Shown: positions 5,662 to 32,400 of the stretch, in pieces
Layout: every line of letters starts with the position of its first letter
Numbering within the stretch: the stretch's first letter is position 1
Origin: Pseudomonadota bacterium
GTDB taxonomy: Bacteria > Pseudomonadota > Alphaproteobacteria > Acetobacterales > Acetobacteraceae
Length of the DNA stretch: 64,000 nt
Reading direction: 5' to 3'
NCBI GenBank assembly: GCA_021805565.1
Contig: JAJZFA010000043.1
Location: 124,001 to 188,000, forward strand
Position numbers and translations under genes: made by a program
The notes under the pieces: generated by a model
The model's database searches: none
What the model saw: only the letters and a program-made list of their open reading frames with translations
Told to the model about the DNA's origin: nothing

Positions 5662-7254
5662 TCAGGTTTCTTTTTTCACGTTCCAGAACAGGGGCATACC
5701 CCGCAACAGGCCGGTCACGGCGTTGGCATGGGCCGTCGGCTGAAAATATTCGCCCAGCGGCAGATAGGGCGGATTGTCGAACGCCTCGGCCTGCATTTGC
5801 GACCCGATGATTTTTTGCGCGGTCGCATCCGGGGCCGCGAACCAGGCGGTGCGCAAGTCTTCCAGTTTTGTATCGGTCGGCCAGCCGAACCAGCCGTTGG
5901 CGCCGTTGCCGCGCAGACCCAGATGACCGGCCGGCGTGTATTGATCGACACCGCCGAAGCTGGTGAAAAACACGCTCCATCCGCCTTCGGCCGGCGGCTT
6001 CCGGCTGGCTCGGCGTTGCACGACCGATCCCCAGTCGGTGACCTGAAGATCGACGTTCATGCCCACTTTTTGCAGCATGTCGGCACCGACCTGGCCCATG
6101 GCGTTCAATACGGGAAGATCCGACGCGACCATCACGACGATTTTTTCGTTCTTATAGCCGGCGGCGATCAGGTCCTTCTTCACCTTGTCCAGGTCGCGCG
6201 GGCTTTCCAGTGCCTGCATGCCGATGTCGCTGGCGAGCGGCGATCCGGGCGGGAAAAAGCCAACCTTGTCCTTCCATCCCGATGGATCGGTACCGGCCAC
6301 GGCCGTCATGAAATCCGCCTGATCCACCGCCCCCAGAAGTGCTCGGCGGATGGCGGGGTTGTCGAACGGCGGATGAAGCTGGTTGAAGCGCAGCATCGAT
6401 GGCGAACCCGACGGATCGAGGATTTCCACTGTCACGCCCTTGGTTTTGTGTAACAGCGGCAACAGGTCGAAGGTCGGCGCTTCCCACCAATCTGCCTCAT
6501 TGCTTTGCAGCGCGCCCATGGCGGTGGCGGCATCGGGGATGACAGTCCATTCCACGCGGTCGAAGTTCACGATCTTGGGACCGGCGGTCCAGTCCGGCGT
6601 GCCGCTGGGCCGCGGAACATATTTTTCATTACGCTCATAGGCCACCCTGGCGCCGGCCACCCGTTCATCCGCCTTGAACCGGAACGGGCCGCTGCCGACC
6701 ATTTCGGTTACCTGCTTGAACGGATCGGTGTTCGCGAGCCGTTCGGGCATCATCGGACAGATGTTGACGCCGACCTTTCCCAGTGCGGCTGGAAGTAACG
6801 GAAACGGTTGTTTCAGGCGAAACTGGATGGTTTTATCGTCGGGCGCCGACAATTCGTCGGTCGCCGCCATCAGTGCCTGGCCGAAGGCGTCGCGCTTGCC
6901 CCAGCGGCTAATGGATGCAACGCAATCGCGGGCGAGAACGGGGGTGCCATCGTGGAAATTGAGGCCGTCGCGCAGCGTCAGTTTCCAAACCTTGCCGTCG
7001 CTGCTGGTTGTCGCGCCTTCCACCATCTGCGGCTGGGGATCGAACTTGCCGTCGGACCCGTACAGCGTGTCGAACACCATCATGCCATGATGGCGGGTAA
7101 GGTAGGCGGTGGTCCAGATCGGGTCCAGCACCGCGAGATCGCCTTGCGGAATGAACCGCAATACGCGTGAACCGGCGCTCCGGGCGATGTTGGGTCTCGC
7201 CAGACCCAGCGCCAGGGCGGCGGTTCCGGTGTGTAGAAGGGTGCGTCTTTTCAC
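5662..7254 (-). CDS. Peptide/nickel-type ABC transporter substrate-binding protein (SBP family 5)
   Basis: Periplasmic solute receptor of the DppA/OppA class, 530 residues. The start MKRRTLLHTGTAALALGLARP (GTG at 7254, preceded by CCCGGAGTTGCAC) gives a Tat-like signal peptide with KRR. Typical family blocks are LRDGLNFHDGTPV, RFNQLHPPFDNPAIRRALLGAV and the C-terminal GGVDQYTPAG region. No permease or ATPase of the Dpp type is present nearby, so it is an orphan receptor here. It is the last gene of the block and lies 49 bp after gamma-glutamyltransferase, which suggests handling of a peptide-like or gamma-glutamyl substrate; that link is inference. Confidence 0.86.
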   Translation of the reverse strand: MKRRTLLHTGTAALALGLARPNIARSAGSRVLRFIPQGDLAVLDPIWTTAYLTRHHGMMVFDTLYGSDGKFDPQPQMVEGATTSSDGKVWKLTLRDGLNFHDGTPVLARDCVASISRWGKRDAFGQALMAATDELSAPDDKTIQFRLKQPFPLLPAALGKVGVNICPMMPERLANTDPFKQVTEMVGSGPFRFKADERVAGARVAYERNEKYVPRPSGTPDWTAGPKIVNFDRVEWTVIPDAATAMGALQSNEADWWEAPTFDLLPLLHKTKGVTVEILDPSGSPSMLRFNQLHPPFDNPAIRRALLGAVDQADFMTAVAGTDPSGWKDKVGFFPPGSPLASDIGMQALESPRDLDKVKKDLIAAGYKNEKIVVMVASDLPVLNAMGQVGADMLQKVGMNVDLQVTDWGSVVQRRASRKPPAEGGWSVFFTSFGGVDQYTPAGHLGLRGNGANGWFGWPTDTKLEDLRTAWFAAPDATAQKIIGSQMQAEAFDNPPYLPLGEYFQPTAHANAVTGLLRGMPLFWNVKKET

Positions 7255-7303
7255 GTGCAACTCCGGGTTGGATGCCCATTGATATGCAAAAATCCTGCCG
7301 CGG

Positions 7304-8959
7304 TCATGTGTGCCGGATGGCCTCTGGCCGGAAGCGCACGCCGGGGCGGGCCAGGCCGCCGCCCAGCGCGACCGGCGTGCCATCGGCCCGCCAGCAGGCG
7401 GCGCCCTCCATCGTGCCGTCGCCATGGAAATGGATCGCGCTCATGCCGCCCGCCACGGTGCCAACGCGCACGGTGTCGTGGCCTTTGGCGTGCAGTGCAT
7501 CGAAAACGGACTGGGCAATGCCGCCTTCCAGTTCCAGCGCGTGACCCTGCGTCCAGACACGCGGCGCTTCGACGGCTTCCTGCACCGTCATGCCATGGTC
7601 GATCAGGTTGGACAGCGCCTGCATGACGGACGGGAAAATCCGCAGGCCGCCGGGCAGACCCAGCGCGTAAACGGGCTTGCCGTCCTTCGTAACGATAACG
7701 GGCGACATGGAAGACGTGACGCGCTTGCCCGGTTGCACCGAACTCGCCCGGCCGGGATGCGGATCGAAGACATGCATGTAGTTGTTCGGGATCATTCCCG
7801 TACCCGGAACGATGTAGCGGGCGCCGAACAGGCTGTTGATGGTCTGAGTGCTGGCGACGACGTTTCCAGCCGCATCGGCGACCGTGACATGCGTGGTGTA
7901 GGCGGACGTTTCCGCGGCCACTTCGGCGGACCAGCGTTGTGCGCGGCCGCGATCGATACGGGCGCGACGATCGGCGGCATAGGATTTCGACAGTATTTTC
8001 CCAACCGGCACACGGACGAACGCCGGGTCTGCGGTGGCCGCCGCTCGGTCGGCGAAGGCGATTTTCAGGACCTCGGCCAGCAGGTGGACGGTGTCGGCGG
8101 TGCCAAACCCCAGCGCGCGAATATCGAAGCCTTCAAGAATATTGAGCATCTGCACGATGTGCAGCGGGCCGGACGACGGCGGCGGCGGGCCGATAATCTC
8201 GTACCCGCGATACGTGCCGCGCACGGGTTCGCGCATGATTGTCTCGTACCCGGTCAGATCGTCGCGGGTAATATATCCGCCCGCATGGTCCATATGCGCC
8301 GCGTAATGAACACCGAGTGCGCCGGTGTAGAGATAATCGGGTCCAAGACGGGCGATATCGCGCAGGGTTTCTGCGTAGTCGCGGGTAATCAGGCGGCTGC
8401 CGGCCAGCAACGGCTCGTCGTTCGGCAGATAAAGCCGGGCAATTTCCGGATCGAGTCGCATGTCGGCGGCGGCGTCGCCGATGCAATCGTGCAGATAGGG
8501 CGTCACGCGGAACCCACGGCTGGCATGCCGGATCGCCGGTTCCATCGCGTCGGCCAGGGAGACCGTGCCAAAGCGTTCCAGCGCCTGACACCATCCCTTT
8601 AGGTTGCCGGGCACGGCGACGGCGGTGGGGCCGACAGCATTCTTGCGGCCGATCGTGTCCATCGTTCCGGGCGCGGCTTCGGGATCCGGGGTGTAGGTAA
8701 CAGGTCCGGTTTTCGCGGGGGCGGTGCTTTGATTGTCGATGATGGTATGGGTGCCATCGGCGAGGCGAATATGCGCCATGCCGCCGCCCAGGATGCCGAC
8801 CATCATCGGTTCCACGACCGTCAGGGTAAAGAAAGTGGCAATGGCGGCGTCGATCGCATTGCCCCCAGCGGCCAGCATTTCGGCGCCGGCGGCGGAGGCA
8901 AGCGGATGGTTGGAGATCGCCATGCCGTTCTTGCCGGTCGCGGGATATTTTTCGGTCAT
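7304..8959 (-). CDS. ggt: Gamma-glutamyltransferase family protein
   Basis: Ntn-hydrolase that transfers or hydrolyses gamma-glutamyl groups; the precursor self-cleaves before the nucleophilic Thr. 551 residues. Sequence shows GMAISNHPLASAAGAEML at the N-terminus, the SAYTTHVTVAD stretch containing the TTH nucleophile region near two thirds of the length, and a C-terminal GGLRIFPSVMQALSNLIDHG. The N-terminus MTEKYPATGKNGM has no obvious signal peptide, so it may act in the cytoplasm. The start lies next to the stop of the racemase-like gene, so the two are coupled. Could also be a cephalosporin-acylase-like member with another amide substrate. Confidence 0.88.
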   Translation of the reverse strand: MTEKYPATGKNGMAISNHPLASAAGAEMLAAGGNAIDAAIATFFTLTVVEPMMVGILGGGMAHIRLADGTHTIIDNQSTAPAKTGPVTYTPDPEAAPGTMDTIGRKNAVGPTAVAVPGNLKGWCQALERFGTVSLADAMEPAIRHASRGFRVTPYLHDCIGDAAADMRLDPEIARLYLPNDEPLLAGSRLITRDYAETLRDIARLGPDYLYTGALGVHYAAHMDHAGGYITRDDLTGYETIMREPVRGTYRGYEIIGPPPPSSGPLHIVQMLNILEGFDIRALGFGTADTVHLLAEVLKIAFADRAAATADPAFVRVPVGKILSKSYAADRRARIDRGRAQRWSAEVAAETSAYTTHVTVADAAGNVVASTQTINSLFGARYIVPGTGMIPNNYMHVFDPHPGRASSVQPGKRVTSSMSPVIVTKDGKPVYALGLPGGLRIFPSVMQALSNLIDHGMTVQEAVEAPRVWTQGHALELEGGIAQSVFDALHAKGHDTVRVGTVAGGMSAIHFHGDGTMEGAACWRADGTPVALGGGLARPGVRFRPEAIRHT

Positions 8960-9733
8960 TCAAAGGCCCTTGGGGTGGGACAGGAATTCCTGAATAATGT
9001 GCGGCGGCGCTTTCACGTAATCGGATGTGCGGCTGACCCCAAGGCCGGTGAGGCGCCGCAGTTTGACGGCGGTTTCCGCGGCTTTCACCACGATGGGAAT
9101 GCCGTTGATAACCGGGGCGCCATCGACCGCGTGGCCGCGAATGCGGGAAAACAGCAGCATGGGGATTCCGCCGCCGGGGATCAGCACATCGACGCCTTGC
9201 GCGACGAGCGGTCTTGCCTGTTCGGCAAATTTCCGTTCCACTTCCCTGGCGAGATCGTCGTTCGCGTAGGCTTTCAGGATTTCGCCGGGTTCGAACGTCA
9301 TGGCGTGGACGCCGGTGACGCGGTGTTCCAGCCCATATTTGCGAATCTGGTGATGAAACCAGGAGATATAGCGCGGATTTATCGTTACGATACCGCTGCG
9401 CTGACCCAATTGGCAGGCGTGCAGCATGGAGGCTTCGCCCAGCGCGACGACCGGAATATCGACAACCGAGCGGCATTCGTAAAGACCGGCGTCCTGGAAG
9501 TGGCCGATGACGAAGGCATCGTAACCTTCGCGTTCGGCTTTTATGGCGTTGCAGATCACCTCCCTGGCGCAGCGGAATTCCACGATCGGGTGGGCGTAGG
9601 AGTCGTGTGGGGTGATGCCGTGGACCTCGATTTCAGTGCCTGGATCGGCGATTTCAACCAGATGCGCTTTCAGCACGTCCCAGTATTGGGCGCCGTTTTC
9701 ATAATCGACGTAGCTTTGATACCAGATACGCAT
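8960..9733 (-). CDS. Asp/Glu/hydantoin racemase family protein lacking both catalytic cysteines
   Basis: 257-residue member of the aspartate/glutamate/hydantoin racemase fold. The GHFQDAGLYECR segment (His78) aligns with the block that normally holds the first catalytic Cys (ACF-DPGL type), and IPGGGIPML (about 187-191) aligns with the block that normally holds the second (GC-G). Neither position is Cys. A classical two-base racemisation is therefore unlikely; relatives such as decarboxylases and maleate isomerases need only one Cys. Placed between an SDR gene (12 bp) and gamma-glutamyltransferase. Function unknown within this pathway. Confidence 0.78.
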   Translation of the reverse strand: MRIWYQSYVDYENGAQYWDVLKAHLVEIADPGTEIEVHGITPHDSYAHPIVEFRCAREVICNAIKAEREGYDAFVIGHFQDAGLYECRSVVDIPVVALGEASMLHACQLGQRSGIVTINPRYISWFHHQIRKYGLEHRVTGVHAMTFEPGEILKAYANDDLAREVERKFAEQARPLVAQGVDVLIPGGGIPMLLFSRIRGHAVDGAPVINGIPIVVKAAETAVKLRRLTGLGVSRTSDYVKAPPHIIQEFLSHPKGL

Positions 9734-9745
9734 GGGGTTTCCCTG

Positions 9746-10462
9746 TTAGATCGTAATGGAACCAATGCTGGCGCCGCCGCAAACGAACAACGTCTGGCCG
9801 GTGATGAAGCTGCTGTCCGGGCTGACGAAGAACATGACCGCGCGGGCAACGTCGTCCGGAACGCCCAGGCGTTTGACGGGAATGGCGGCGGCCAGGGCTT
9901 CCTCCCGAGCACTGTCGGCGGGAATCACGTCGTGGAACATTTCGGTTTCGCGGATGGGGCCGGGCGCGACGACGTTGACGGTGATGCCGTCTGGGGCGAG
10001 TTCCAGCGCCCACGTGCGGGCCATGCCGATCATGCCGGCCTTCGTCGCGGAATAGGCGGTGCGGGTGGCAAGGCCGAGGGCGGCGCGGGAGGAAATCAGC
10101 ACGATCCGGCCGAACCCGGCGGCGCGCATCGCGGGCAGGGCCGCCTGGGTCAGGGTCAATGCGCTGTTGAGGTGAAGCTGCATCAGCGCGATCATGTCGC
10201 CATCCGTAACGTCCGCCAGCGCTTTCGCTCGGATGGCACCGGCGTTGTGGACGATATGGGTAATTTCGTGGCGGGCCGCGAGGTCTTGTGCGGCTTGCGC
10301 TGTCGCGACCGGGTCCAGCAGGTCGGCTTCGAGGTGTTCGCAGCGCGGATCGGCTGGCTCGCGGCGCGACAACGAAACGACATGATGGCCGGCATCGAGC
10401 AAATGAGTACAGATCGCGGCGCCGATGCCGGTGCTGCCCCCGGTGACGATCGCGACGGTCAT
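9746..10462 (-). CDS. SDR family oxidoreductase
   Basis: Classical short-chain dehydrogenase, 238 residues, NAD(P)-dependent. Visible motifs: TGGSTGIG (residues 7-14), HNAG (72-75), and the catalytic Ser-Tyr-Lys set with YSATK (Tyr137, Lys141). PG-PIRETEMF follows. The start MTVAIVTGGS overlaps the stop of the cyclase-family gene by four bases (ATGA), so it belongs to the same operon. Substrate unknown; a hydroxyl or carbonyl of the indole/isatin-like intermediates is plausible from context. Confidence 0.88.
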   Translation of the reverse strand: MTVAIVTGGSTGIGAAICTHLLDAGHHVVSLSRREPADPRCEHLEADLLDPVATAQAAQDLAARHEITHIVHNAGAIRAKALADVTDGDMIALMQLHLNSALTLTQAALPAMRAAGFGRIVLISSRAALGLATRTAYSATKAGMIGMARTWALELAPDGITVNVVAPGPIRETEMFHDVIPADSAREEALAAAIPVKRLGVPDDVARAVMFFVSPDSSFITGQTLFVCGGASIGSITI

Positions 10463-11241
10463 GGCTTCGTCTCGACAAGCGCCAATACCCGCAAGGGGCT
10501 GCCAGAACCCTGGCGGATTTTCAGCGGGGCGGTCAGCAGCAGGGTGCCGGTGGGCGGAAGCTGGTCGAGATTTGCCAGGCATTGCAGGCCATAGCGGCCG
10601 CGCCCGTGCATGTAGTGATGGGCGGGATAGGGGGGCGTAAAGTGGGCAGCCTGGCCGGCATCGGTGCCGATTGTTTCTGTCCCGAAGCCGTGAACGTCGC
10701 GTTCCTCGACCAGGAATTTGACAGCGTCGGGGGCCGGGCCGGGGGAATGCGGCCCGTCATCGGACAGGTTGACGTATTGTCTCGGCGGTAGCTTGTGCCA
10801 GTCTGTTCGCAGCAGAACCCAGGATTGCGACGGGATGCGGCCATGTTTGGCTTCCCAGGCTTGGACGAACGGAATGGTCAGCACGAAGTCAGCGTCGGCG
10901 GCGGATTCAGCTGCGCAGTCGATCGTGCAAGCGGGTGCCAGGAAGTGTTCGGGCGGAATGGTATCCACCGCGTTGTTGGGCAATTCCTTGCCGGTGACCC
11001 AATGGATGGGGGCGTCGAAATGCGTGCCGGTGTGTTCGCCCATGGTGAAGTTGTTCCAATACCAGGCGGGGCCGCGTTCGTCGTAGCGGGAGATTTCCTC
11101 CATGCGGAACGGCGCGCACTGGCCGAGTTCGGGCGGCATGACAATGGTGGGAAATCCGGGCGTCAGCGTGTGCGTCAGGTCGATGACACGAATCCGGCCG
11201 GTGGCCAGCGCGACGGCGAAGGCGGTCAGGGCGGTGGTCAT
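10459..11241 (-). CDS. Cyclase-family metal hydrolase, isatin hydrolase-like
   Basis: 260-residue member of the cyclase/kynurenine formamidase superfamily. The metal-binding motif HTGTHFDAPIH (residues 70-80) fits HxGTHxDxPxH, which coordinates Mn or Zn; a second His-rich stretch AHHYMHGRG lies near the C-terminus. The family includes isatin hydrolase, which opens the isatin ring to isatinate, kynurenine formamidase and other cyclic-amide hydrolases. The neighbours (Rieske dioxygenase, IorAB, aminobenzoyl-CoA fusion) make isatin ring opening the best guess; this is inference. Coupled on both sides by ATGA overlaps. Confidence 0.85.
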   Translation of the reverse strand: MTTALTAFAVALATGRIRVIDLTHTLTPGFPTIVMPPELGQCAPFRMEEISRYDERGPAWYWNNFTMGEHTGTHFDAPIHWVTGKELPNNAVDTIPPEHFLAPACTIDCAAESAADADFVLTIPFVQAWEAKHGRIPSQSWVLLRTDWHKLPPRQYVNLSDDGPHSPGPAPDAVKFLVEERDVHGFGTETIGTDAGQAAHFTPPYPAHHYMHGRGRYGLQCLANLDQLPPTGTLLLTAPLKIRQGSGSPLRVLALVETKP

Positions 11242-12479
11242 TGTCCGAGTTCCCGTTCCAGCGCCTTGGGTTGAACGTCCAGGCGCGCCTTGATGTCCTG
11301 TGCGATGTCGCCGACGTAGGAATCCTCGATACCCTTGCGCAACGCGTCCACGGTCGCATTCGCCAGCGCGGCCGGAGATAGTTTCGGGGGCGGCACGGTT
11401 TGAAACCATTCCGTATCCAGCGGTCCGGCGAACATATTCAGCACCTTGACGCCACCGCCGCGCAATTCCGCCCGCAGTGCCTGTGCGGCGGACAGGCAGG
11501 CGGCCTCGGCGGCGGAAAAGGCGCCGTATTGCGGCCAGTTCATCAGGGCATGGACGGACAACAGGTTGACGAACGCCGCGGCGGCATTGACGCCATCCGC
11601 GCCCCGTGCGCGCATGGTGGGGCCGAAATATTGCGCCAGCCGCAACAGGCCGAAATAGCGGATATCCATCTCCCGATGGGCGATGGTCAGGCCGTGACGG
11701 TGCATGATGCCGCCGGCGCGGGGATGTTCGGCGGTGTTGATCAGAATATCCACCCGGTGGGCGATTTCGCCGGCCACGTCGGCAACCGACTGACTATCGG
11801 TGATATCGAGCGAAACGACCTCGGCGCCCGGAATCGTGCGCAGGGCGGTTTCGCCGGGGAAGGGTTTCCACGCATCGGCGATGCCCACGAAAACGATCGA
11901 CGCCCCGGCCCCGGCCATTGCCCGAGCCATCGCCTGACCGATGGCGGTGCGGCCGTCGGTAATCAGCACGCGGCGGAATTTCGGATCGCAGGTGAATTCC
12001 CGCAGTTGCACGTCGTCCCCCTGATGCTGGCTGGACTGTTCCGGCATAGCGATAGCGACGGCGTTGCCGCTTTTGTCGAGACGCAGGCTAAGCCGCACCC
12101 GAGTCCCTTCGGCAACGTCGCCGTGCAGATGGGCAACGAAAGACGGACCGCAATCCAGCACCACGGTGCCGATGCGCCACGGCGTGCGCTCACGGAAATA
12201 GACATCGGTGCTGGTGCGGATCGTCGTTTCGGCCAGCAGCGTGCCGCCTGGCGGCACGTCCTGGAACGGCAGGCGGCTGGACAGGCAGCGCGGACAGGCA
12301 TCGCGCGGCGGATAGATCGCCAGGCCGCAGCCGGCACAGACCTGCAGGGCGAACCGGCCCTCGGCGGCGGCGGCGGTTAGTCCGTGCGCGGTGCGGCTGC
12401 GAACACCCTGCGGCAGCAGCGGTTCGCGGGTTTTCTTCAGCGGATCCTTGCGGCGGGGACGGATCAGCGGTTCGGTCAT
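11238..12479 (-). CDS. Zn-ribbon/OB-fold (DUF35-type) protein fused to a degenerate SDR domain
   Basis: 413 residues with two parts. The N-terminal ~150 residues are the acyl-CoA-associated rubredoxin-like Zn ribbon (Cys48, Cys51, Cys62, Cys65: CAGC...CPRC) plus an OB fold, the usual partner of thiolase-like proteins. From ~168 a Rossmann SDR domain follows, but its glycine motif is TDGRTAIG, the NNAG motif is INTAEH, and the YxxxK motif reads Tyr318-GAF-Ser322, so the catalytic Lys is gone. It starts four bases inside the thiolase-like gene (ATGA), supporting a complex with that protein. The SDR part may be structural or act on a CoA ester in a non-redox way. Confidence 0.85.
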   Translation of the reverse strand: MTEPLIRPRRKDPLKKTREPLLPQGVRSRTAHGLTAAAAEGRFALQVCAGCGLAIYPPRDACPRCLSSRLPFQDVPPGGTLLAETTIRTSTDVYFRERTPWRIGTVVLDCGPSFVAHLHGDVAEGTRVRLSLRLDKSGNAVAIAMPEQSSQHQGDDVQLREFTCDPKFRRVLITDGRTAIGQAMARAMAGAGASIVFVGIADAWKPFPGETALRTIPGAEVVSLDITDSQSVADVAGEIAHRVDILINTAEHPRAGGIMHRHGLTIAHREMDIRYFGLLRLAQYFGPTMRARGADGVNAAAAFVNLLSVHALMNWPQYGAFSAAEAACLSAAQALRAELRGGGVKVLNMFAGPLDTEWFQTVPPPKLSPAALANATVDALRKGIEDSYVGDIAQDIKARLDVQPKALERELGQ

Positions 12480-13639
12480 GCGCGCGCCAACAGCACGGCG
12501 GAACTGGCTAGGCCGCGATCGTAGTTGATCATGCCGAAGCCAGACACCAGCCCGATATTGGCGTTCGGCACGGCGGTTGTGCCGGCCTCGTCCGTAAGCT
12601 GACGCAGCGCCTCGACCAGTCCCAGATGGCCGCCGCCGGCCCCTGCCTGACCGACCGACAACTGCCCGCCGGATGTGTTATGCGGAAAGTCGCCGTCCGT
12701 CGTCAGGCTGTGGGCGCGCACGAAGGCAGGCCCCTCGCCCTTTTCGCAAAAGCCGAGATCCTCGATCTGCATCATAACAATCACCGGGTAATCGTCGTAA
12801 GTTTGCAGGAAATCCACCGCGTCGGGCTTGATGCCCGCCATACCCCACAGCTCGTCGCGATCGATCGCCCAGCCGCCGCGAAACTGAATTGGATCGCTGG
12901 CGAACGCGTTGTGGCGTTCGATCGCCGACAAAATGCGGGCGTAAGGGATGTTCATCGCAACCGCATCGTCTTCCCGGCACACCAGGAAGGCCTCGGCGCC
13001 GGCGCACGGCATGACACAATCGAACAGGTGAATCGGGTCCGCGATCGGGCGGGCACGCATATAATCTTCCAGCGTCAGCGTTTTTTGCATCAAAGCGCCG
13101 TCGTATCGCTGGGCGTTGGCACGCTGGGCGACGCAAATGCGCCCGAAATCTTCCCGCGTTGCACCCGTTTTATTCATGTAATGACGGGTAATCAGGGCGA
13201 AACTGGCGTTCGGGCCGCCGGACCCGTACGGATACACCGCATCCTGCGCGAAGCGGGAAAACGAAGACAGGGTCTTACGAAAGCTATCCACGTGATTTGT
13301 ATCCGCACCGACACAAACGACAAAATCCGCATCTCCCGCCTGCACCCCCCGAACCGCACGTCGCAGCGCAACGCCCCCGCCGGCGCCGCCCATCGGGACA
13401 TAATCCAGCCAGCGCGGCGACAGGCCGAGATGTTGTGTCAGTCCGATGGCCGTGTCGGGCGCCAAAGTAAAGCTGGACACCGAAAGACCGTCGATCTGGT
13501 CCGGCATCAGGCCGGTTCGTTGCAACAGCGCGTGAAGCGCTCGGCCGATCCACCAATGCGCGCTGTTCACCGAATACCGGCGATACGGCACGCTGACCGG
13601 CGCGCAAATAACGACCCCGTCATAGCCTTTGCGCTTCAT
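12476..13639 (-). CDS. Thiolase-like protein (SCP-x/acetyl-CoA acetyltransferase-like)
   Basis: 387-residue thiolase-fold protein of the lipid-transfer/SCP-x group. The nucleophile loop reads MGGAGGG (residues 83-89), with no Cys at the usual position. The C-terminal HNTSGGQLSVGQAGAGGG block is the conserved thiolase end region. Together with the Zn-ribbon/OB-fold partner encoded immediately downstream, such pairs perform CoA-dependent C-C bond cleavage or aldol-type reactions. In this locus a role in removing the acetyl side chain from an indole-acetyl-CoA derivative is plausible (inference). Overlaps both neighbours by four bases. Confidence 0.83.
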   Translation of the reverse strand: MKRKGYDGVVICAPVSVPYRRYSVNSAHWWIGRALHALLQRTGLMPDQIDGLSVSSFTLAPDTAIGLTQHLGLSPRWLDYVPMGGAGGGVALRRAVRGVQAGDADFVVCVGADTNHVDSFRKTLSSFSRFAQDAVYPYGSGGPNASFALITRHYMNKTGATREDFGRICVAQRANAQRYDGALMQKTLTLEDYMRARPIADPIHLFDCVMPCAGAEAFLVCREDDAVAMNIPYARILSAIERHNAFASDPIQFRGGWAIDRDELWGMAGIKPDAVDFLQTYDDYPVIVMMQIEDLGFCEKGEGPAFVRAHSLTTDGDFPHNTSGGQLSVGQAGAGGGHLGLVEALRQLTDEAGTTAVPNANIGLVSGFGMINYDRGLASSAVLLARA

Positions 13640-15222: not shown

Positions 15223-15247
15223 GATGGTAACGGTCTCGAATGGTCGT

Positions 15248-18527: not shown

Positions 18528-18528
18528 C

Positions 18529-24295: not shown

Positions 24296-24400
24296 GCGAG
24301 GTTTACAGCGGCGTCCGGGCTTGTTCCGAGTTCGTCATGACACCGTCCGGCGACCGGAGCACGGATGACGGCAAGCCAAAAACCGGAGAAAACACCATCG

Positions 24401-25540
24401 TTACTGGATCAGCTTCCACTTGCCATCCACCGCCTGCACCAGTACGCGGGCGCGGTCGTCCATGCCGTTGTGATTGGTTGGGCTCATCGAATACACGCCG
24501 TGGGTGCCGACAAGATCGTGGGTTTTTTCCAGCGAGTCGCGCAGCGCGACGCGAAACGCCTCGGTGCCGGGCTGCGCGGTTTTCAGCGCTTCCGGAATGG
24601 CCGCTTGCAGCAGCAGGAACGCGTCCTCGCTGTAACCGGCGAAGGGGCTGACCGCATCCGGCCCGACTTTTTCGATCAGTGCCTTCATAAACACGACCGA
24701 CGGCGCTCGGGACTGGTTGCTGTCCGGCAGTTGATCGTACACCACCACCGGTCCGGTGACCGCGATGGTGCCCTCCACCTGGGCGCCGCCGACGCGCAGG
24801 AACGCGGGGCTGACCATGCCGTGATTGCCATAGATCAAGCCTTTGTAGCCGCGCCGGTGCAGTGCCACGTCGGGCAGCGCGCCGGGTGTGCCGGACCCGC
24901 CGATCATGACGGCGTCGGGCTTTTTGGTCATCGCCTTCAACACCTGCGCCTCGGCGGAGGTATCGGTGCGGGCATATCGTTCGTTCGCGACAACCTCGAT
25001 GCCGGATTTCGCGGCGCTGGCTTGCAGCGCGTCGTACACCTGATCGCCGAACCCGTCGGAATAGCCGATATAGGCCACTGTCTTGACGCCGCGCTTCGCC
25101 ATGTCGCCGACGACCGCGCCAATCATCAGCGCCACCGGCTGCACGGCTGAGAAGGTGTACGGGTCTTTCACCGGGTCGTAGTCGATCGGCGCGGTGGCGA
25201 TCATCGGCACCTTCGCGGCGTTGGCGATGGGCTGCACCGCGTAATCCGCCGATGTCAGGGTCGGGCCGATAATGGCATCGACATGGTCTTCCTCGATCAT
25301 CCGCTGCGCGATGGTGACCGCCTGACTGGCGTCGGCCGCGTCGTCGCGAACGATATACGTCACCGACTTTCCGCCGATCTCCGCCGGAAACGTGGCGAAT
25401 GCGCTTTTATAGCCGACACCCAGCGCGGCGGTGGGACCGGTGATCGAGATGATGGCGCCGATCTTGATCTGCGCGGACGCCGCCGTTGTCAGCAGCCCGG
25501 CCAGCACGGCCGCGGTTCCGAATACCCGAATCATCCGCAT
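24401..25540 (-). CDS. livK: Branched-chain-type ABC transporter substrate-binding protein LivK
   Basis: 379-residue periplasmic receptor. Signal peptide cleaved near TTAASAQ, mature start IKIGAIISITGPTAALGVG, typical of aromatic/amino-acid binding Liv proteins. Further family text: IIGPTLTSADYAVQPIANAAKVP and YIGYSDGFGDQVYDAL. The start MRMIRVFGTAAVL (ATG 25540) is preferred, with MIRV six bases later possible. First transporter gene of the block, 40 bp after the aminobenzoyl-CoA fusion gene, hence likely the receptor for the imported aromatic substrate. Confidence 0.91.
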   Translation of the reverse strand: MRMIRVFGTAAVLAGLLTTAASAQIKIGAIISITGPTAALGVGYKSAFATFPAEIGGKSVTYIVRDDAADASQAVTIAQRMIEEDHVDAIIGPTLTSADYAVQPIANAAKVPMIATAPIDYDPVKDPYTFSAVQPVALMIGAVVGDMAKRGVKTVAYIGYSDGFGDQVYDALQASAAKSGIEVVANERYARTDTSAEAQVLKAMTKKPDAVMIGGSGTPGALPDVALHRRGYKGLIYGNHGMVSPAFLRVGGAQVEGTIAVTGPVVVYDQLPDSNQSRAPSVVFMKALIEKVGPDAVSPFAGYSEDAFLLLQAAIPEALKTAQPGTEAFRVALRDSLEKTHDLVGTHGVYSMSPTNHNGMDDRARVLVQAVDGKWKLIQ

Positions 25541-25580
25541 GTCAGTCCCCCAAACTTTCGCACCGGCCGCCCGGTTCGTA

Positions 25581-27917
25581 TCATATTGCCTTAGCAACAG
25601 CGTCGTCGCCAGTCCCGCCATGGCTTTTCGGACGCGCGCGCCGGCGCAACTCGATCAGGTCCGCGCGCTCCCGCCCGGCACTGCGCATCAGCGCGTCGCG
25701 GCCATATTCGTATTGGATCGGGCAGGGAACATCCTGAACGCCGTAATCCGCCGCCGCGCGCAGGGCGAAACCGGCATCCACCAGATGCGGCCGGGCCAGC
25801 GCGACAAGATCGGCTCGGCCCGCCGCGAGAATGGTGTTGATCTGGTCGGCGGACGTGATGGACCCGACGCACATGGTCGAAAGCCCGGTTTCATTGCGGA
25901 TCATATCCGAAAACGGAACCTGGAACATGCGGCCGTAAATGGGCGCGGCGTCGGCCACGGTCTGGCCGGTTGACACGTCGATCAGATCGCAGCCGGCGGC
26001 GGCGAAGGCGCGGGCGATCGTTGCCACATCCGGTTCGGAAATACCGCCATCGGCCCAGTCCGTGGCGGACAGGCGTACCGACATCGGCTTGTCGCGCGGC
26101 CAGACCGCCCGCATGGCGCCGAACACCGCCAGCGGGAAGCGCAGCCGGTTCTCGATGGAGCCGCCGTACTCGTCGGTTCGGGTATTGGTCAGCGGCGACA
26201 GGAAACTGGCGAGCAAATAGCCGTGCGCGCAATGCAATTCCAGCATATCGAAACCGCAGCGGTTGCCCCGGATCGCCGCTTGGCGGAAATCATCCATCGC
26301 GCGGTCCATGTCGGCGCGGTTCATTTCACGTGGGATTTGGTTTTCCGGTGTGTAGGGAATGGCGGAGGCGGAGATGACGGGCCATCCGCCCGATGGCAAC
26401 GGCCGGTCCATCCCGTCCCACATCAGCCTTGTGCTGCCCTTGCGGCCCGCGTGGCCGAGTTGCAGGCAGATTTTCGCCGTCCCGTTGGTGTGGGTGAACC
26501 CGGCGATGCGGGTCCACGCCGCTTCCTGTTCGTCGTTCCACAGGCCGGTGCAGCCGGGCGTGATGCGGGCATCGGCGGACGGGCAGGTCATTTCGGTGTA
26601 AATCAGGCCCGCTCCGCCAGTGGCGCGGGCGCCATAATGCACCAGATGCCAGTCGTTCGGCACGCCGTCCACCGCACTGTATTGGCACATGGGGGAAACG
26701 ACCACGCGGTTGGTCAGCGCCATGCCGCGCAGGCGGAACGGCTGGAACATCGGCGGTTTGTTCGCGTCGGCGGGTTGGGCATTGCCGGCGGCTTCGCGGG
26801 CGAAAAGCATATCGACTTCATGAATGAAGGGCGGGGCGCGCAAAGCCAGATCGTCGTAGGTGATGGCTTTGGAGCGGGTCATGACCCCGAACGCGAAGCG
26901 GGTCGGGTGCATGGGCCAGAAGCGGCGCACATGTTCGAACCAGACCAGGGACACATCGGCGGCGTGCTGTATTTTCTCGACCGCCTCGCGCCGGCCGCTT
27001 TCGAAACGGGCCAGACAGTCCGGTACGGTCCCGCCGTCCATAACGGCGCTATGCAGCGCGATCGCGTCCTCCATCGCCAGTTTGGTGCCGGACCCGATGG
27101 AGAAATGCGCGGTCGCCTTGGCATCGCCGAGCAGGACGATGTTCCCCTTCGTCCAGCGGGCGCAGCGGATCATGGGAAATTGGCGCCACTGGCTGCGGTT
27201 GACGATCAGTTTGTGGCCGGCCAGTTCATCGGCGAACACGTTTTCCATGAAACGGGCGGACTCTGCCTCGGTCGCGTGTTCCAGGCCGGCGTTGCGGAAG
27301 GTTTCCGGCTCCATTTCCAGCACCCAGGTACTGGCGCCGCGTTCGTATTGATAGCAATGGGCGATGAAAATGCCTTCGGCGCGTTCCTTGAAAAAGAACG
27401 TGAACGCATCGAACGGCCGGGTGCTGCCCATCCAGGCGAACCGGTTCGGCCGCAAATCGGTGTTCGGCTGGAAATGCGCTTCGTCGCCCGAGCGGATGGC
27501 GCTGTTGATGCCGTCGGCGGCGACGATCAGGTCGGCATCGGGGAAATCGGCGGGCGTTGCCGTCCGGTCGAACAGCAGTTCTACGCCCAGCGCCCGCGCG
27601 CGGTCGTGCAGCAGCATCAGCAACGTGCGGCGGGAGCAGCCGCAGAACCCGTTGCCGCCGATGCGTTGAACCGTTCCACGGACATGGATTTCCACATCGT
27701 CCCAGTAGGCGAATGCGTCCTTGATGGCACGGTAGCTGGGTGCGTCGGCGGCGGCGAAGGCGTCCAGGGTCTGGTCGCTGAAGACGACGCCGAAGCCGAA
27801 CGTGTCGCCGGGGCCGTTACGCTCGGTGACTGTAATATGTGTGTCCGGGCGGTCCCGCTTGAGCAGGATCGCGAAATAGAGTCCGGCCGGACCGCCGCCG
27901 ATTACCGCAACGCGCAT
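25581..27917 (-). CDS. Bifunctional FAD monooxygenase / old-yellow-enzyme reductase (2-aminobenzoyl-CoA or salicylyl-CoA type)
   Basis: 778-residue fusion. The N-terminal ~380 residues are a class A flavin monooxygenase: VAVIGGGPAGLYFAILL dinucleotide site at the start and VLLGDAKATAHFSIGSG in the second FAD motif. From ~395 an NADH:flavin oxidoreductase (OYE) barrel follows, with LTNRVVVSPMCQYSA, LQLGHAGRKGS and ELHCAHGYLLASFLSP. This architecture is that of 2-aminobenzoyl-CoA monooxygenase/reductase and the salicylyl-CoA 5-hydroxylase fusions, which hydroxylate and dearomatise the CoA-bound ring. The ATG at 27917 is favoured; a GTG lies two codons upstream. It heads the minus-strand block opposite the MarR operon. 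Confidence 0.9.
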   Translation of the reverse strand: MRVAVIGGGPAGLYFAILLKRDRPDTHITVTERNGPGDTFGFGVVFSDQTLDAFAAADAPSYRAIKDAFAYWDDVEIHVRGTVQRIGGNGFCGCSRRTLLMLLHDRARALGVELLFDRTATPADFPDADLIVAADGINSAIRSGDEAHFQPNTDLRPNRFAWMGSTRPFDAFTFFFKERAEGIFIAHCYQYERGASTWVLEMEPETFRNAGLEHATEAESARFMENVFADELAGHKLIVNRSQWRQFPMIRCARWTKGNIVLLGDAKATAHFSIGSGTKLAMEDAIALHSAVMDGGTVPDCLARFESGRREAVEKIQHAADVSLVWFEHVRRFWPMHPTRFAFGVMTRSKAITYDDLALRAPPFIHEVDMLFAREAAGNAQPADANKPPMFQPFRLRGMALTNRVVVSPMCQYSAVDGVPNDWHLVHYGARATGGAGLIYTEMTCPSADARITPGCTGLWNDEQEAAWTRIAGFTHTNGTAKICLQLGHAGRKGSTRLMWDGMDRPLPSGGWPVISASAIPYTPENQIPREMNRADMDRAMDDFRQAAIRGNRCGFDMLELHCAHGYLLASFLSPLTNTRTDEYGGSIENRLRFPLAVFGAMRAVWPRDKPMSVRLSATDWADGGISEPDVATIARAFAAAGCDLIDVSTGQTVADAAPIYGRMFQVPFSDMIRNETGLSTMCVGSITSADQINTILAAGRADLVALARPHLVDAGFALRAAADYGVQDVPCPIQYEYGRDALMRSAGRERADLIELRRRARPKSHGGTGDDAVAKAI

Positions 27918-27933
27918 ACGCACCCCGAGATAG

Positions 27934-27961
27934 TTTAGGCTTGAACATTTTTAAGCTTGAA
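27934..27961. promoter_or_regulatory. Paired operator-like boxes in the divergent promoter region
   Basis: Two 12-base boxes, TTTAGGCTTGAA (27934-27945) and TTTAAGCTTGAA (27950-27961), differ by one base and are 16 bases apart. Each is close to palindromic around A(A/G)GCTT. They lie in the 144 bp between two divergent operons, one of which encodes a MarR regulator. A possible plus-strand promoter TTGAAC-N16-TATCAG (27941-27968) overlaps them. I infer MarR binding sites. Confidence 0.5.
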
Positions 27962-28061
27962 TTATCAGGAGCGCAAGGTCTATATCGGCCTTGTGAGCGA
28001 TGACTTTTGCTTCGTCATCGTCAACCGGGGTTATCCCTGGTGGCCGGCGGAGGAAATAGCG

Positions 28062-28829
28062 ATGCGGGATGGGCCGTTGGCAGGACGGCATGCGCTGGTG
28101 ACGGGCGGCGGGTCGGGTATCGGCCTTGCAGTCGCCACCGCCCTGACTGCGTCCGGCGCTCGGGTGACCGTCCTCGGTCGCCGGGAAGCAGTGCTGCGTG
28201 CCGCGGTCGCGGACGGGCACGCGGCGTTTTATTTTGTTGCCGATGTGACTGGCGAAGACGCGGTGCCGAGTGCCATCGCCGCGGCAGCACCGATACTGGG
28301 GCCGGTCCTGCTGCTGGTCAACGCGGCGGGGGCGGCGGAGACCGATCCGTTCGGCAAAACCAGCATGGCAAGTTTTGAGCGGATGTGGCGCGTCAACGTC
28401 CTTGGCGCCGTCGCCGCGACGCAGGCCGTGTTGCCCGGCATGGTGGAAGCGGGTTTCGGACGGGTGGTGAACATCGCGTCCACCGCATCGCTGAAGGGTT
28501 ATCGTTACGTTAGCGCCTACGTCACCGCAAAACACGGGCTGCTGGGTTTTACCCGGGCGCTGGCGCAGGAACTGGCGGGCAGCGGCATCACCGTCAACGC
28601 GGTCTGCCCAGGATTTACCGATACCGCCCTTGTGGCGGACAGCCTCGCCCGGATCGTCGCGCGCACCGGGCGCCCACCCGAACATGCGCTGGCGGAACTG
28701 ACACAAACCAACCCGCTGGGCCGGCTGATCCGGCCGGAAGAAGTGGCCGCCAGCGTCGCGTACCTGTGCTTGCCTGACGCGGCCGGGGTAAACGGACAGG
28801 CATTGGCGGTGGACGGGGGCGAAACATGA
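28062..28829 (+). CDS. SDR family oxidoreductase (3-hydroxyacyl-CoA dehydrogenase-like)
   Basis: 255-residue classical SDR. TGGGSGIG (residues 14-21), NAAG (87-90), Ser140, Tyr153 and Lys157 (YVTAK) are all present, so it should be an active NAD(P) oxidoreductase. The start at 28062 is chosen because GGAGGAAATAGCG precedes it and the Rossmann motif follows directly; an ATG at 27957 would overlap the operator-like boxes. First gene of the plus-strand operon with MarR, crotonase and Rid genes; probably reduces or oxidises a ring-derived CoA intermediate. Confidence 0.88.
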   Translation: MRDGPLAGRHALVTGGGSGIGLAVATALTASGARVTVLGRREAVLRAAVADGHAAFYFVADVTGEDAVPSAIAAAAPILGPVLLLVNAAGAAETDPFGKTSMASFERMWRVNVLGAVAATQAVLPGMVEAGFGRVVNIASTASLKGYRYVSAYVTAKHGLLGFTRALAQELAGSGITVNAVCPGFTDTALVADSLARIVARTGRPPEHALAELTQTNPLGRLIRPEEVAASVAYLCLPDAAGVNGQALAVDGGET

Positions 28830-29341
28830 CGCCGGACGATGCGCCCGCCGCGGTCGATCTTGAAACCGCGCTGGCTGGAACGCCGGACGGACATAAGGAA
28901 GATTTGCGCTTGTGGCTGCGGTTACTGTCGGCGACCAATCTGATCGAAACGGAAATCCGGCGCCGTCTGCGCGAACAATTCGCCACGACGCTGCCGCGGT
29001 TCGACCTGCTGGCGCAGCTCGACCGCAAACCGGGCGGACTTACGCTGGGGGAAATTTCGCGCCGGATGATGGTGTCCAATGGTAACATCACCGCCCTGGC
29101 CGCCAGTCTGGCAGCGGATGGGCAGGTCGAGAGGCGGGCGCACCCGGCCGACCGGCGAGCTCATTTGCTGTGCCTGACGCCGGCGGGCCGGAAAAATTTC
29201 GCGCGCCAGTCAGCGGCGCATGAGCGCTGGATCGCTGAACTCTTCGCCAGCGTCTCCTCCGCCGATCGCGCCTCGCTTCACCGGCTTCTCGGTGCTGTCA
29301 AAACCGGCGTAAGGAACACATTGCGGGAGAAAACGGTGTGA
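28826..29341 (+). CDS. MarR family transcriptional regulator
   Basis: 171-residue winged-helix regulator. The recognition region reads [40 protein letters not shown] in outline (about residues 72-111), ending in the wing [10 protein letters not shown]. Coupled to the SDR gene (ATGA) and to the crotonase gene (GTGA). MarR proteins of catabolic loci usually repress until an aromatic ligand binds. Its best target is the pair of boxes at 27934-27961, which would control both operons. Confidence 0.92.
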
Positions 29342-30147
29342 ACCTGACAACCTACCGGGCGACCAGCCTGGTATTTTCGATCGACGGTCAGGTTGCGACG
29401 CTGACGCTGAACCGGCCGGAGCGGAAAAACCCCATCACGTTCGATAGTTACGCGGAAATGACGGCGATCTTTCAGGCCGCGGTCACCGAGGATGCGATAC
29501 GCGCCTTCGTGGTGACCGGGGCGGGCGGCAATTTCTGCTCCGGCGGCGATGTGCATGAAATCATCGGGCCGTTGTTGGATCGCGATACCAAGGGTTTGAT
29601 GGCGTTCACCAGCCTGACCGGTTCGCTGGTCAAAGCAATGCGCGCCTGTCCGCAGCCGATCGTCGCGGCGGTGGACGGTGTGGCGGCGGGGGCGGGGGCG
29701 ATTATCGCCATGGCGAGCGATCTTCGCCTCGCGACCCCGAAGGCAAAGGTGGCGTTTCTGTTTAACCGCGTCGGACTGGCCGGTTGCGATATGGGTGCCT
29801 GCGCGATCCTGCCGCGTATTGTCGGCCAGGGGCGCGCGTCGGACCTGCTTTATACCGGCCGGTCGCTGGGGGCGGACGAAGGCCTGGCCTGGGGATTCTT
29901 CAACCGCGTCGTGCCGGCCGAGACGCTGGCGGCCGACGCCGCGGCCATGGCACGCGAACTGGCGGACGGGCCGTCGTTCGCCAACGCCATGACCAAGCGC
30001 ATGTTGCAGATGGAATGGGCGATGTCGGTCGAACAGGCGATCGAGGCGGAAGCGGTGGCGCAGGCCCTGTGCATGACGACGGGCGATTTCCGGCGCGCGT
30101 ATGAGGCGTTCGTCGCCAGGCGCAAACCGGTGTTCGCGGGCGACTGA
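29338..30147 (+). CDS. Enoyl-CoA hydratase/isomerase (crotonase) family
   Basis: 269-residue crotonase-fold protein acting on CoA esters. Oxyanion-hole block [15 protein letters not shown] and the second block [19 protein letters not shown] are present. The two Glu residues that serve as acid/base in hydratases are not obvious: the block reads [21 protein letters not shown] and the later one [11 protein letters not shown]. It may be an isomerase, hydrolase or ring-opening type crotonase. GTG start overlapping the marR stop. Context suggests a step after ring dearomatisation. Confidence 0.88.
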
Positions 30148-30160
30148 CGGGAGACGGGAC

Positions 30161-30565
30161 ATGGGCGATCTAACGGTTCTGCAACCGGCCGGCTGGCCGG
30201 CCCCGCGCGGGTACAGCAACGGAATCGCTGGAACCGGCCGCGTGGTAACGGTCGGCGGGATGATCGGCTGGGATGAGAACGGCCGCTATCCCGAAGGGTT
30301 TGTCGCGCAGGCGGCGCAGGCACTGCGGAACATCCTGGCGGTTGTGCGCGAAGCCGGCGGCGGGCCGGAGCATATCGCGCGAATGACGTGGTATGTTGTC
30401 GATATCGAGGAATACCGTTCGGCATTGCCGGCGCTGGGCGCGGCCTACCGCGAAACGCTGGGGCGCTGGTATCCGGCGATGACCCTGGTCCAGGTTTCCG
30501 CGCTGGTCGAGCGACAGGCGCGGCTGGAAATCGAGGCTACCGCGATTATCGGCGTCAGCGATTAG
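30161..30565 (+). CDS. Rid (YjgF/YER057c/UK114) family protein
   Basis: 134-residue trimer-forming Rid-family protein. Matches: GYSNGIAGTGRVVTVGGMIG, the helix AAQALRNILAVVREAGGG and C-terminal VQVSALVERQARLEIEATAI. The Arg that RidA uses to bind the substrate carboxylate (PARS context) is Met107 here (YPAMTLV), so it is not a canonical RidA 2-iminoacid deaminase. With an aminobenzoyl-CoA pathway encoded alongside, an enamine or imine intermediate is a plausible substrate (inference). Preceded by GGGAGACGGGAC, 13 bp after the crotonase stop. Confidence 0.9.
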   Translation: MGDLTVLQPAGWPAPRGYSNGIAGTGRVVTVGGMIGWDENGRYPEGFVAQAAQALRNILAVVREAGGGPEHIARMTWYVVDIEEYRSALPALGAAYRETLGRWYPAMTLVQVSALVERQARLEIEATAIIGVSD

Positions 30566-30678
30566 ACCGGTTTGTTTACGGAATGGCGGCGACGGCGGGC
30601 AGCCGGCCGTCGCCCGTTGCGTTGACCTTTCGCCCGGCAACGACCTACTGTCGGGTAGGTTGCAAAAAGAGGCAGGCA

Positions 30679-32400
30679 ATGACCGACACGCTCACGATCC
30701 GCGGCGGCACCATCGTCGATGGCACCGGCCGGACGCCATATGAGGCGGACGTGGCCGTGGTGGGCGGCACGATCGCGGCGATCGGCCGCGGATTGCCCAA
30801 GGCGGACCGGGAAATCGACGCGCGCGGCAAACTTGTCACACCGGGCTTTGTCGATGTTCACACGCATTACGACGCGCAGGCGACCTGGAGCAACCGCTTC
30901 AGCCCGTCTTCGTGGAACGGCGTCACCACGGTCCTGATCGGCAATTGCGGCGTCGGTTTCGCCCCGTGCCGCCCCGAACAGCGCGACATGCTGGTCAAGC
31001 TGATGGAAGGCGTGGAAGACATCCCCGAAGTGGTGCTGACCGAGGGCCTGCCGTGGAACTGGCAGACCTTTCCGCAGTATCTCGATGCCCTGGATGCGCG
31101 GCAATACGACATCGACGTGGCAACGCAGGTTCCACACTCCGCTGTGCGGGTCTATGCGATGGGCGAGCGCGGCGCGAACCGCGAGCCTGCCACCGAAGAC
31201 GACCGCACCCTGATGGGCCGGATCGTCGCCGAGGGGTTGCGCGCCGGCGCCCTTGGGTTCGCCACGTCCCGCACCATCGCCCATAAGACGCTGGCCGGGG
31301 ATCACATCCCTACGCTTCGGGCGGCCGAGGCGGAACTCGCCACGATCGGTGCCGCGATGCGCGAGACGGGGGCCGGCTGGATGCAGGTGATTTCCGATTT
31401 CGACGATGCCGAAGCCGAATTCGGCATTCTGCGCCGGGTGGCCGAAGGGTCCGGCCGGCCCATGACGTTTTCGTTGCTGCAACGAGAGCAGCGTCCCGCA
31501 TTGTGGCGCGCGTTGCTCGACAAGGTCGCCGAGGTCAATCAGGCCGGTTTCGATATGAAAGCCCAGGTCATGGGTCGCCCGATCGGCATTATGCTGGGAT
31601 TCGAGATTTCGCAAAATCCGTTCGTGGGGCGCCCAAGCTGGCGCGAAATCGCAAACCTGCCGTTCGCCGCCAAACTCGCGAAACTGCGGACGGCGGAGTT
31701 CCGCGCCCGCCTGTTGTCGGAGGAGACGGCCAATCCGCTGGCCAGGCAGCGCCTGAACGCCTGGGAGCGCATTTTTCCTTTGAACGACCCGCCGGATTAC
31801 GAACCGCCGCCGGAAGCCAGCGTGGCGGCCCGGGCCGAGCGCGAAGGCCGCGATCCGCAGGACGTGGTGTACGACATGCTGCTGGAGAAGGACGGACGCG
31901 CGATTCTGTATCGTCCGATCATCAATTATGCCGACGGGACGCTGGATACCGTCAAGCTGATGATGGAAGATCCGAACACGTTGATCGGTCTCGGCGACGG
32001 CGGGGCGCATGTCAGCATCATTTGCGATGCCAGCACGATGACCCATACCCTGACCCACTGGGTGCGGGACCGCACGCGCGGCGCCCGGATGAACCTGGAA
32101 TGGGTGGTCCGCCGGCTGACGCGCGACAACGCGGCCGCGCTGGGCCTGCATGACCGGGGCGTGGTGGCGCCGGGGTACAAGGCGGATATCAACGTCATCG
32201 ACTTCGATCGGCTGATGGTTCATGCGCCGGAAGTGCTGTACGATTTACCGGCGGGCGGCCGCCGGTTGGTGCAGCGGACCGAGGGGTTCGATGCGACCAT
32301 CGTTTCGGGTGTGCCGGTTTACCGTAACGGCGAAGCAACGGGCGAACTGCCGGGCCGGCTGGTGCGCGGTGCGAAGGCGCGGCGGGCGGTTGCCGGCTAG
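30679..32400 (+). CDS. D-aminoacylase / N-acyl-D-amino-acid deacylase family amidohydrolase
   Basis: 573-residue metal-dependent amidohydrolase (family 3). N-terminal composite beta domain [21 protein letters not shown], metal motif [13 protein letters not shown], and C-terminal [16 protein letters not shown] with [15 protein letters not shown]-like text ([17 protein letters not shown]). The family cleaves N-acyl-D-amino acids or related cyclic amides. It follows the Rid gene by 113 bp, which may hold its own promoter. Possible roles: hydrolysis of amide-linked indole conjugates or of a pathway intermediate; specificity cannot be read from sequence. Confidence 0.88.

Follow-up and report, generated by a model that had tools for sequence, protein, structure and literature searches.

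Gene content and layout of the locus

We analysed a window of 64,000 nucleotides (C62:124001-188000, contig JAJZFA010000043.1) from a Rhodopila-related genome of the Acetobacteraceae, which is assembled as 4.49 Mb in 64 contigs with a listed completeness of 98.54%. The window holds an iad-type locus for the predicted aerobic degradation of auxin (indole-3-acetate). This kind of locus is already known. The form found here is a variant, with no iadC gene and with the upper and lower pathways under one promoter region. What we add, from sequence comparison, are proposed reactions for IadG and IadAB and a putative operator.

Two gene groups form the locus. Seventeen co-directional genes occupy the minus strand from 27923 down to 5662, and five genes the plus strand from 28062 to 32400 (open reading frames, coding score and family matches). 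Both groups diverge, back to back, across about 140 bp. The genes overlap or lie at most 13 bp apart at 11 of the 16 junctions on the minus strand and at three of four on the plus strand. An earlier sequence-only reading had described 17 genes facing a five-gene operon; its counts hold, but the orientation is the opposite. It had also recognised the Liv transporter, in which LivM and LivG are one fused polypeptide according to Pfam.

The order on the minus strand is ABM, LivKHMGF and iadABDEFGHIJ. ABM (25581..27923) is a monooxygenase/reductase fusion. It passes the NF006101 cut-off over its full length (1088.9 against 1078 bits), a model that leaves undecided whether the substrate is 2-aminobenzoyl-CoA or salicylyl-CoA. 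The IadK-like periplasmic binding protein (24401..25540) has 7ylt as its best solved match (328 bits), and aromatic-type binding proteins come next (293 bits). LivH (23282..24295) was assigned by position; in 33 of the 80 loci described below, tblastn also finds a match next to K. The LivM-LivG permease and ATPase fusion (21426..23285) carries the Pfam domains BPD_transp_2 and ABC_tran. LivF, an ATPase (20710..21429), was recognised from its translation and synteny.

The plus-strand group begins with a short-chain dehydrogenase/reductase (SDR) of the putative lower pathway (28062..28829), whose family matches lie under the cut-offs. A MarR-family regulator (28826..29341) and a protein of the enoyl-CoA hydratase family (29338..30147; NF006107, 445.4 bits, cut-off 330) follow. 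Next is a Rid-family protein (30161..30565), a candidate enamine/imine deaminase that scores below the TIGR00004 cut-off (47.4 against 106.25 bits). In the congener G025 these four are 81%, 78%, 90% and 82% identical, respectively.

The names of the iad genes follow the Achromobacter locus L049, with the order A-B-C-D-E-F-G-H-I-J-K. Both marker genes, iadA and iadB, are present in the window, and iadFGHIJ stand in order. For comparison we used the best 80 of 572 loci from an IadD alignment search, 20 of which lack a full flank. Among these IadD-encoding loci, IadE was found in 80, IadJ in 68, IadB in 61, IadG in 60, IadH in 59, IadF in 58, IadA in 55 and IadI in 54. IadE lies directly downstream of IadD in 79. 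This co-occurrence rules out chance for the core.

Within the host genus, a search of 32 congeners gave locus matches above threshold in three: G010, G025 and, as a fragment, G022. Therefore, the locus is patchy in this genus. In G025, the block from the gamma-glutamyltransferase-family gene to ABM and the operon of SDR, MarR, hydratase and Rid genes are kept at 75-91%. G025 has an additional transporter-like gene (L107:3483-4808), placed after livF and before iadA, which is absent from the window.

The Rieske oxygenase and the isatin hydrolase

IadD (15721..17025) is the alpha subunit of a Rieske oxygenase. Its best solved matches are 9o71 (624 bits) and 7yls (623 bits), and the next reaches 165 bits. 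We take 7yls to be IadD, and 7ylt, mentioned above, to be IadK2. Over the aligned part, the window protein is 61% identical to the solved Variovorax IadD. As for 9o71, figure legends name it as IadDE of Variovorax paradoxus CL014. All seven metal ligands are kept, and eight of the nine pocket residues. The nine are those listed in PMC10374108, and two of them double as iron ligands. The changed residue is L211, which is glutamine in the window and in five further bacterial rows, Bradyrhizobium-like ones included; leucine occurs in Variovorax only.

The beta subunit, IadE (15248..15724), was identified by family matches and by its place beside IadD. IadI (10459..11241) has isatin hydrolase A as its best solved match (5nnb/5nna, 399 bits). 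IadJ (9746..10462) is an SDR dehydrogenase by family matches and synteny. IadF (13636..15222) was assigned as an acyl-CoA ligase by synteny and by family matches under the cut-offs. In L039, L042, L045 and L046 nothing occupies the slot between iadE and iadG, and another part of the locus carries a distant ligase gene (30-34%), as though it had taken the place of IadF.

IadG and IadH as a putative retro-aldolase

IadG (12476..13639) has a thiolase fold. A 2025 preprint (PMC12633357) names it a ketothiolase. The sequence-only reading labelled it "thiolase-like", but a retro-aldolase fits the evidence better. By sequence, the best solved match is the aldolase Sal (9myr), and the aldolase Ltp2 (6ok1) ranks fourth, with a putative thiolase and a true one between the two. 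By fold, Sal comes first and Ltp2 second and third. The IadG model has a pLDDT of 77, with low confidence at 325-332, the region of the glutamine pair discussed next.

We compared residue columns in 59 sequences (the window and 58 loci of sufficient coverage). In all 59, the column of the thiolase nucleophile holds glycine, the base tyrosine is kept, and so are both glutamines of Sal. IadG does not show the residues of a ketothiolase (EC 2.3.1.16): glycine and glutamine replace the nucleophile cysteine and the catalytic histidine throughout. According to Pfam, the proposed partner, IadH (11238..12479), joins an SDR domain to a DUF35 part of the ChsH2 type, with a zinc ribbon and an OB domain. 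DUF35 proteins are described as the usual partners of Sal/Ltp2-type aldolases in PMC12329534.

We propose that IadG and the DUF35 part of IadH may together convert dioxindole-3-acetyl-CoA to isatin and acetyl-CoA by retro-aldol cleavage. The alcohol of this substrate would be tertiary and in the beta position relative to the thioester. The pair shares with the steroid side-chain aldolases Sal and Ltp2 the thiolase fold, the lack of a nucleophile cysteine, the base tyrosine, the Sal-type glutamine pair and the DUF35 partner. In contrast with them, the DUF35 protein is fused to an SDR, the proposed substrate is indolic, and IadG has aspartate instead of Cys304 (Sal) or histidine (Ltp2).

Some observations weigh against this proposal. 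Thiolases stand close behind Sal and Ltp2 in the fold ranking. Moreover, IadG has aspartate at the catalytic Cys304 of Sal and glutamine at the position of Tyr344 in Ltp2. With Cys304 replaced, the proton donor would differ from that of Sal. For this reason, since neither Cys304 nor Tyr344 is found, we liken IadG in its mode to Sal and Ltp2 and class it as neither.

IadA and IadB and a probable link to 2-aminobenzoyl-CoA

IadA (18529..20673) is the alpha subunit of a 2-oxoacid:acceptor oxidoreductase with an Fe-S tail, and IadB (17022..18527) is its beta subunit (NF006179, 630.8 bits, cut-off 348). As an indolepyruvate ferredoxin oxidoreductase IadA scores poorly: it reaches 276.6 bits with TIGR03336, against a cut-off of 650.9, and IadA of L046 and of L133 also lie under it. 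IadAB is probably an isatinate:acceptor oxidoreductase (CoA-acylating), which would yield 2-aminobenzoyl-CoA with neither free anthranilate nor another ligase involved.

Two genome sets were compared, 31 iad genomes picked for spread and 200 genomes of the phylum, our own included. IadA is present in 30 of 31 iad genomes (absent in G380) versus 13 of 200. ABM is likewise present in 30 of 31, partial in G360 and absent in G010, where the contig starts at LivH, versus 25 of 200. In the phylum set, leaving our genome aside, ABM occurs in all ten genomes with an IadA of at least 64%, versus 14 of the remaining 189. Nine of these ten gave no IadD match (partly deduced from the list of matches). The distance between iadA and ABM is 6-11 kb in seven genomes of one genus and 32 kb in G167; the two genes are unlinked in G139.

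Clusters without IadD share part of this gene content. L133 and L134 come from genomes in which IadD gave no match. In both, the isatin hydrolase, IadAB, ABM, an SDR and a hydratase of the window type are clustered; L135 holds the isatin hydrolase and IadAB. For the hydrolase of L133, isatin hydrolase B is matched with 430 bits. No IadF-matching open reading frame was found in the L133, L134, L135 and L136 stretches, and no ligase was recognised in L133 or L134. L133, L134 and the window share an element that starts with isatin hydrolase, ends with ABM and has IadAB in the middle, which fits a conversion of isatinate and CoA to 2-aminobenzoyl-CoA by IadAB. Clusters of this kind (L133:395-19547, L134:1143-17672, L135:7795-16035) also hold two CrtI/CrtO-like FAD oxidoreductases.

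Previous works give data on these genes. The alpha and beta genes of Bradyrhizobium japonicum are induced by auxin 30.7- and 7.64-fold, according to PMC3788728. The preprint PMC12633357 describes compounds of the formulas C8H7NO3 (that of isatinate) and C7H7NO as strong only when iadC-K2 is overexpressed in a deleted background that is iadA-less. In our own reading of these data, the accumulation reflects the lack of IadAB. Largely open-access literature was searched for a published link of IadAB to isatinate, or of aminobenzoyl-CoA to aerobic auxin degradation, and none was found.

Several points speak against the IadAB assignment. The two genome sets are unmatched by phylogeny, and seven of the ten genomes with an IadA of at least 64% belong to one genus. 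In L136 the IadAB-like genes adjoin a Rieske pair that is only distantly related (30%), and the 17 kb contain neither an isatin hydrolase nor ABM. A Variovorax strain with iadC-K2 and without iadAB fully restores anthranilate, as given in PMC12633357, so free anthranilate forms without IadAB. Finally, a benzoate-CoA ligase gene in our genome passes its cut-off and could supply the CoA ester.

Other genes of the host touch the same question. A ligase gene on C29 adjoins genes that, judged by eye, form a benzoyl-CoA (box) set, and a near-cut-off ligase on C44 has no neighbours recognised as aromatic catabolism. For anthranilate dioxygenase, the antA model, the only one searched, gave nothing above its cut-off. 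In L136:1675-16160, glutamine-synthetase-like and transposase-like genes were seen by eye beside the IadAB-like genes and the Rieske pair.

The absent iadC reductase

In Bradyrhizobium and betaproteobacterial loci where iadB and iadD are both visible, a reductase gene lies in the roughly 1 kb between them. No iadC is present at the window locus, where iadB and iadD overlap by 4 bp. Several related Alphaproteobacteria likewise have no iadC at the locus. In total, iadC was not found in 12 of the 80 loci, so we do not treat it as defining for an iad-like locus. In seven of these 12 the gap between iadB and iadD is 0-25 bp; L091 has another small open reading frame between them, and in four iadB is non-adjacent or out of view.

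We also searched for iadC genome-wide (E 1e-30) in 14 genomes with an iadC-less locus, which are G000, G010, G025 and eleven others. No homologue was found anywhere in ten of them at this threshold. The other four returned paralogues only, at 36-45%, versus iadC at 49-55% in five of five controls that have it. Our own genome has two paralogues, each with other partners. One is a frame of 742 residues on C8, whose first part is P450-like by eye; the other, at C62:104351, neighbours a Rieske gene of its own. A separate oxygenase cluster (L104:3393-8481) precedes the window by about 20 kb on C62, with two Rieske-type genes, an IadC-like reductase and a binding protein.

On the IadD tree, 14 of 82 rows have no iadC, with at least six changes, of which the well-supported branches force only one. 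A single loss of iadC was considered and is not established; weak branches allow fewer than six changes. The Fe-S tail of IadA showed no difference between iadC-containing and iadC-less loci, and its 13 cysteines are kept in 52 of 52 sequences.

In a V. paradoxus locus-deletion strain, iadDE alone restores degradation, and iadC is reported as dispensable for it. Thus, the absence of iadC need not break the pathway. It is unlikely, in our estimation, that the IadAB reaction on isatinate passes its two electrons, directly or by ferredoxin, to IadDE in the iadC-less lineages, as a redox-neutral loop. If true, the last oxidation of the indole part would pay for the first oxygenation. Such a loop is not needed, since the Variovorax IadDE works in a strain without both iadC and iadAB.

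The divergent promoter

Aligned with the promoter of G025, the divergent promoter shows a conserved stretch. Here the palindrome TTTARGCYTRAA occurs exactly twice, at 27934 and 27950 (27934..27961, no strand), and nowhere else in the window within one mismatch. Over both strands, the window gives four rows versus 0.23 expected from shuffles. We picked out the motif by eye in the window and in G025, which leaves the other loci as its only test. Within one mismatch it occurs 33 times in 21 of the 80 other loci, versus 8.0 in ten single-base shuffles. Nearly all of these (32 of 33) are outside tested gene matches, and 26, in 18 loci, precede a match to an iad, transporter, ABM or MarR gene by at most 250 bp. 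In the remaining 59 loci, which include those of Bradyrhizobium and Achromobacter, no copy occurs within one mismatch. We propose the pair as a candidate operator.

The MarR protein matches 3boq best (86 bits) versus 28.6 bits for the auxin-binding MarR_73 (7kfo), a comparison by match score.

Accessory and flanking genes

Four genes of the two groups are not part of the core, and the gene list of the sequence-only reading omitted them. The first encodes a protein of the Asp/Glu/hydantoin-racemase family (8960..9733; PF01177), found in five of the 80 loci (L014, L039, L045, L044, L056) and in G025. A canonical racemase role was rejected: histidine and glycine stand at the positions of the two cysteines of allantoin/hydantoin racemases, which we take to be catalytic. 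A conserved GHFQD motif suggests that it may catalyse another reaction. The fold search gave family-level information only.

Next is a gamma-glutamyltransferase-family protein (7304..8959; TIGR00066, 428.7 bits, cut-off 357.85), a lineage accessory. Its gene is present in G025 (85%) and was not found in the G010 stretch or in any of the 80 loci. It directly follows the racemase-family gene in two Rhodopila-type genomes (window 7304-8959; L106:7876-9525).

The outermost genes encode a family-5 peptide-binding protein (5662-7254, minus strand) and an amidohydrolase (30679-32400, plus strand). Both were discarded as parts of the locus, with matches at 30% identity or more in 0 of 80 loci and none in the G025 and G010 stretches. 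Some Achromobacter loci have a peptide-binding protein with a match of 23-25%, taken as family-level. The limits 5662-32400 set by the sequence-only reading were thus too wide, as these two genes are not conserved with the locus and the gamma-glutamyltransferase occurs in one congener only. It had also called the locus complete-looking. This does not apply in the Variovorax sense, as iadC is missing.

Proposed route and its alternatives

We give a probability of about two in three to an aerobic iad-type auxin catabolic locus whose upper and lower pathways form one divergently transcribed unit with the full route that follows. By homology, IadK-LivHMGF would take up the substrate. IadDE would monooxygenate indole-3-acetate and IadJ would dehydrogenate the product to dioxindole-3-acetate, steps published for Variovorax and transferred here by homology. 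IadF may form the CoA ester, from which IadG and the DUF35 part of IadH would release isatin and acetyl-CoA by the retro-aldol reaction. IadI, by the known function of the matched family, would open isatin to isatinate. IadAB would then join isatinate and CoA by oxidative decarboxylation, giving 2-aminobenzoyl-CoA. ABM would hydroxylate and reduce this ester, and the SDR, hydratase and Rid proteins may lead to beta-oxidation. MarR, at the paired palindromes, would repress both operons. In the absence of iadC, IadDE would be supplied with electrons by a reductase or ferredoxin of the cell, or possibly by IadAB.

The sequence-only reading had already proposed an iad-like locus leading from indole-3-acetate by isatin and isatinate to 2-aminobenzoyl-CoA. 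The matches to the solved Variovorax IadD and to isatin hydrolase support it. The synteny check that it suggested showed agreement with Achromobacter and Bradyrhizobium loci. The ABM fusion co-occurs in 30 of 31 iad genomes. It would have been abandoned if the closest characterised homologues acted on unrelated substrates; those of the Rieske alpha subunit and the cyclase do not.

An ordinary locus of the Variovorax type is a somewhat unlikely alternative. IadG would then be a ketothiolase, as the preprint annotates it (PMC12633357), and free anthranilate would be the product, which a cellular ligase would turn into the 2-aminobenzoyl-CoA used by ABM. IadAB would have another or upstream role, for example on indolepyruvate, and a cellular reductase would serve IadDE. 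The restoration of anthranilate without iadAB agrees with this, as do the iadC gene reported as dispensable and the benzoate-CoA ligase above its cut-off in the genome. However, all 59 IadG sequences lack the nucleophile of thiolases, and IadA is far under the indolepyruvate oxidoreductase cut-off. Moreover, isatin hydrolase, IadAB and ABM cluster even without IadD.

The regulator also counts against the route preferred here, since by match score the window MarR is not close to the auxin-binding IadR. Together with the glutamine at L211 and the extra racemase and gamma-glutamyltransferase genes, this could mean that the main substrate is another indolic or aromatic compound, such as isatin or an indole derivative, and auxin a side substrate. 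We consider this very unlikely. The same glutamine is found in five other bacterial rows, Bradyrhizobium-like included, and B. japonicum degrades auxin by the iad route (PMC9613470). The whole upper pathway for the acetate side chain is also present. Likewise, a loss of iadC in the assembly is hardly credible. The host and several relatives are indeed fragmented assemblies or metagenome bins, but iadB and iadD overlap here and are 0-25 bp apart in seven of 12 iadC-less loci. In addition, ten of 14 genomes with such loci have no homologue, and the completeness of our own is 98.54%.

Relation to known systems

The aerobic iad degradation of auxin to 2-aminobenzoyl-CoA, as preferred above, can be compared with three systems. 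With the iad locus of Variovorax paradoxus CL14 and Achromobacter (iadABCDEFGHIJK), the window shares IadABDEFGHIJ in the order of L049 and a linked Liv-type transporter. It differs in having no iadC, the transporter and ABM upstream in front of iadA, a lower-pathway operon that diverges from the same promoter region, a MarR not close to IadR by match score, and the extra racemase-family and gamma-glutamyltransferase-family genes. The Bradyrhizobium iad loci (L015-L036 in part) have IadABDE and IadJ 54-77% identical to those of the window. In contrast, they have iadC between iadB and iadD and no operator match within one mismatch.

The third is the aerobic 2-aminobenzoyl-CoA pathway with the ABM of Azoarcus/Aromatoleum. 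The window shares with it the ABM fusion and the dehydrogenase, hydratase and Rid genes. However, no aminobenzoate-CoA ligase gene stands beside ABM here, and the regulation is joined to the auxin genes. This pathway is treated in PMC6221969.

Root bacteria use the iad pathway to remove plant auxin, and work is under way to engineer it into commensals. In the literature examined, iadA and iadB are markers without an assigned reaction and IadG is named a ketothiolase; a specific, testable reaction is now proposed for each. These proposals would explain how the aromatic ring can continue as a CoA ester. Furthermore, some lineages manage without the dedicated reductase that engineered cassettes include.

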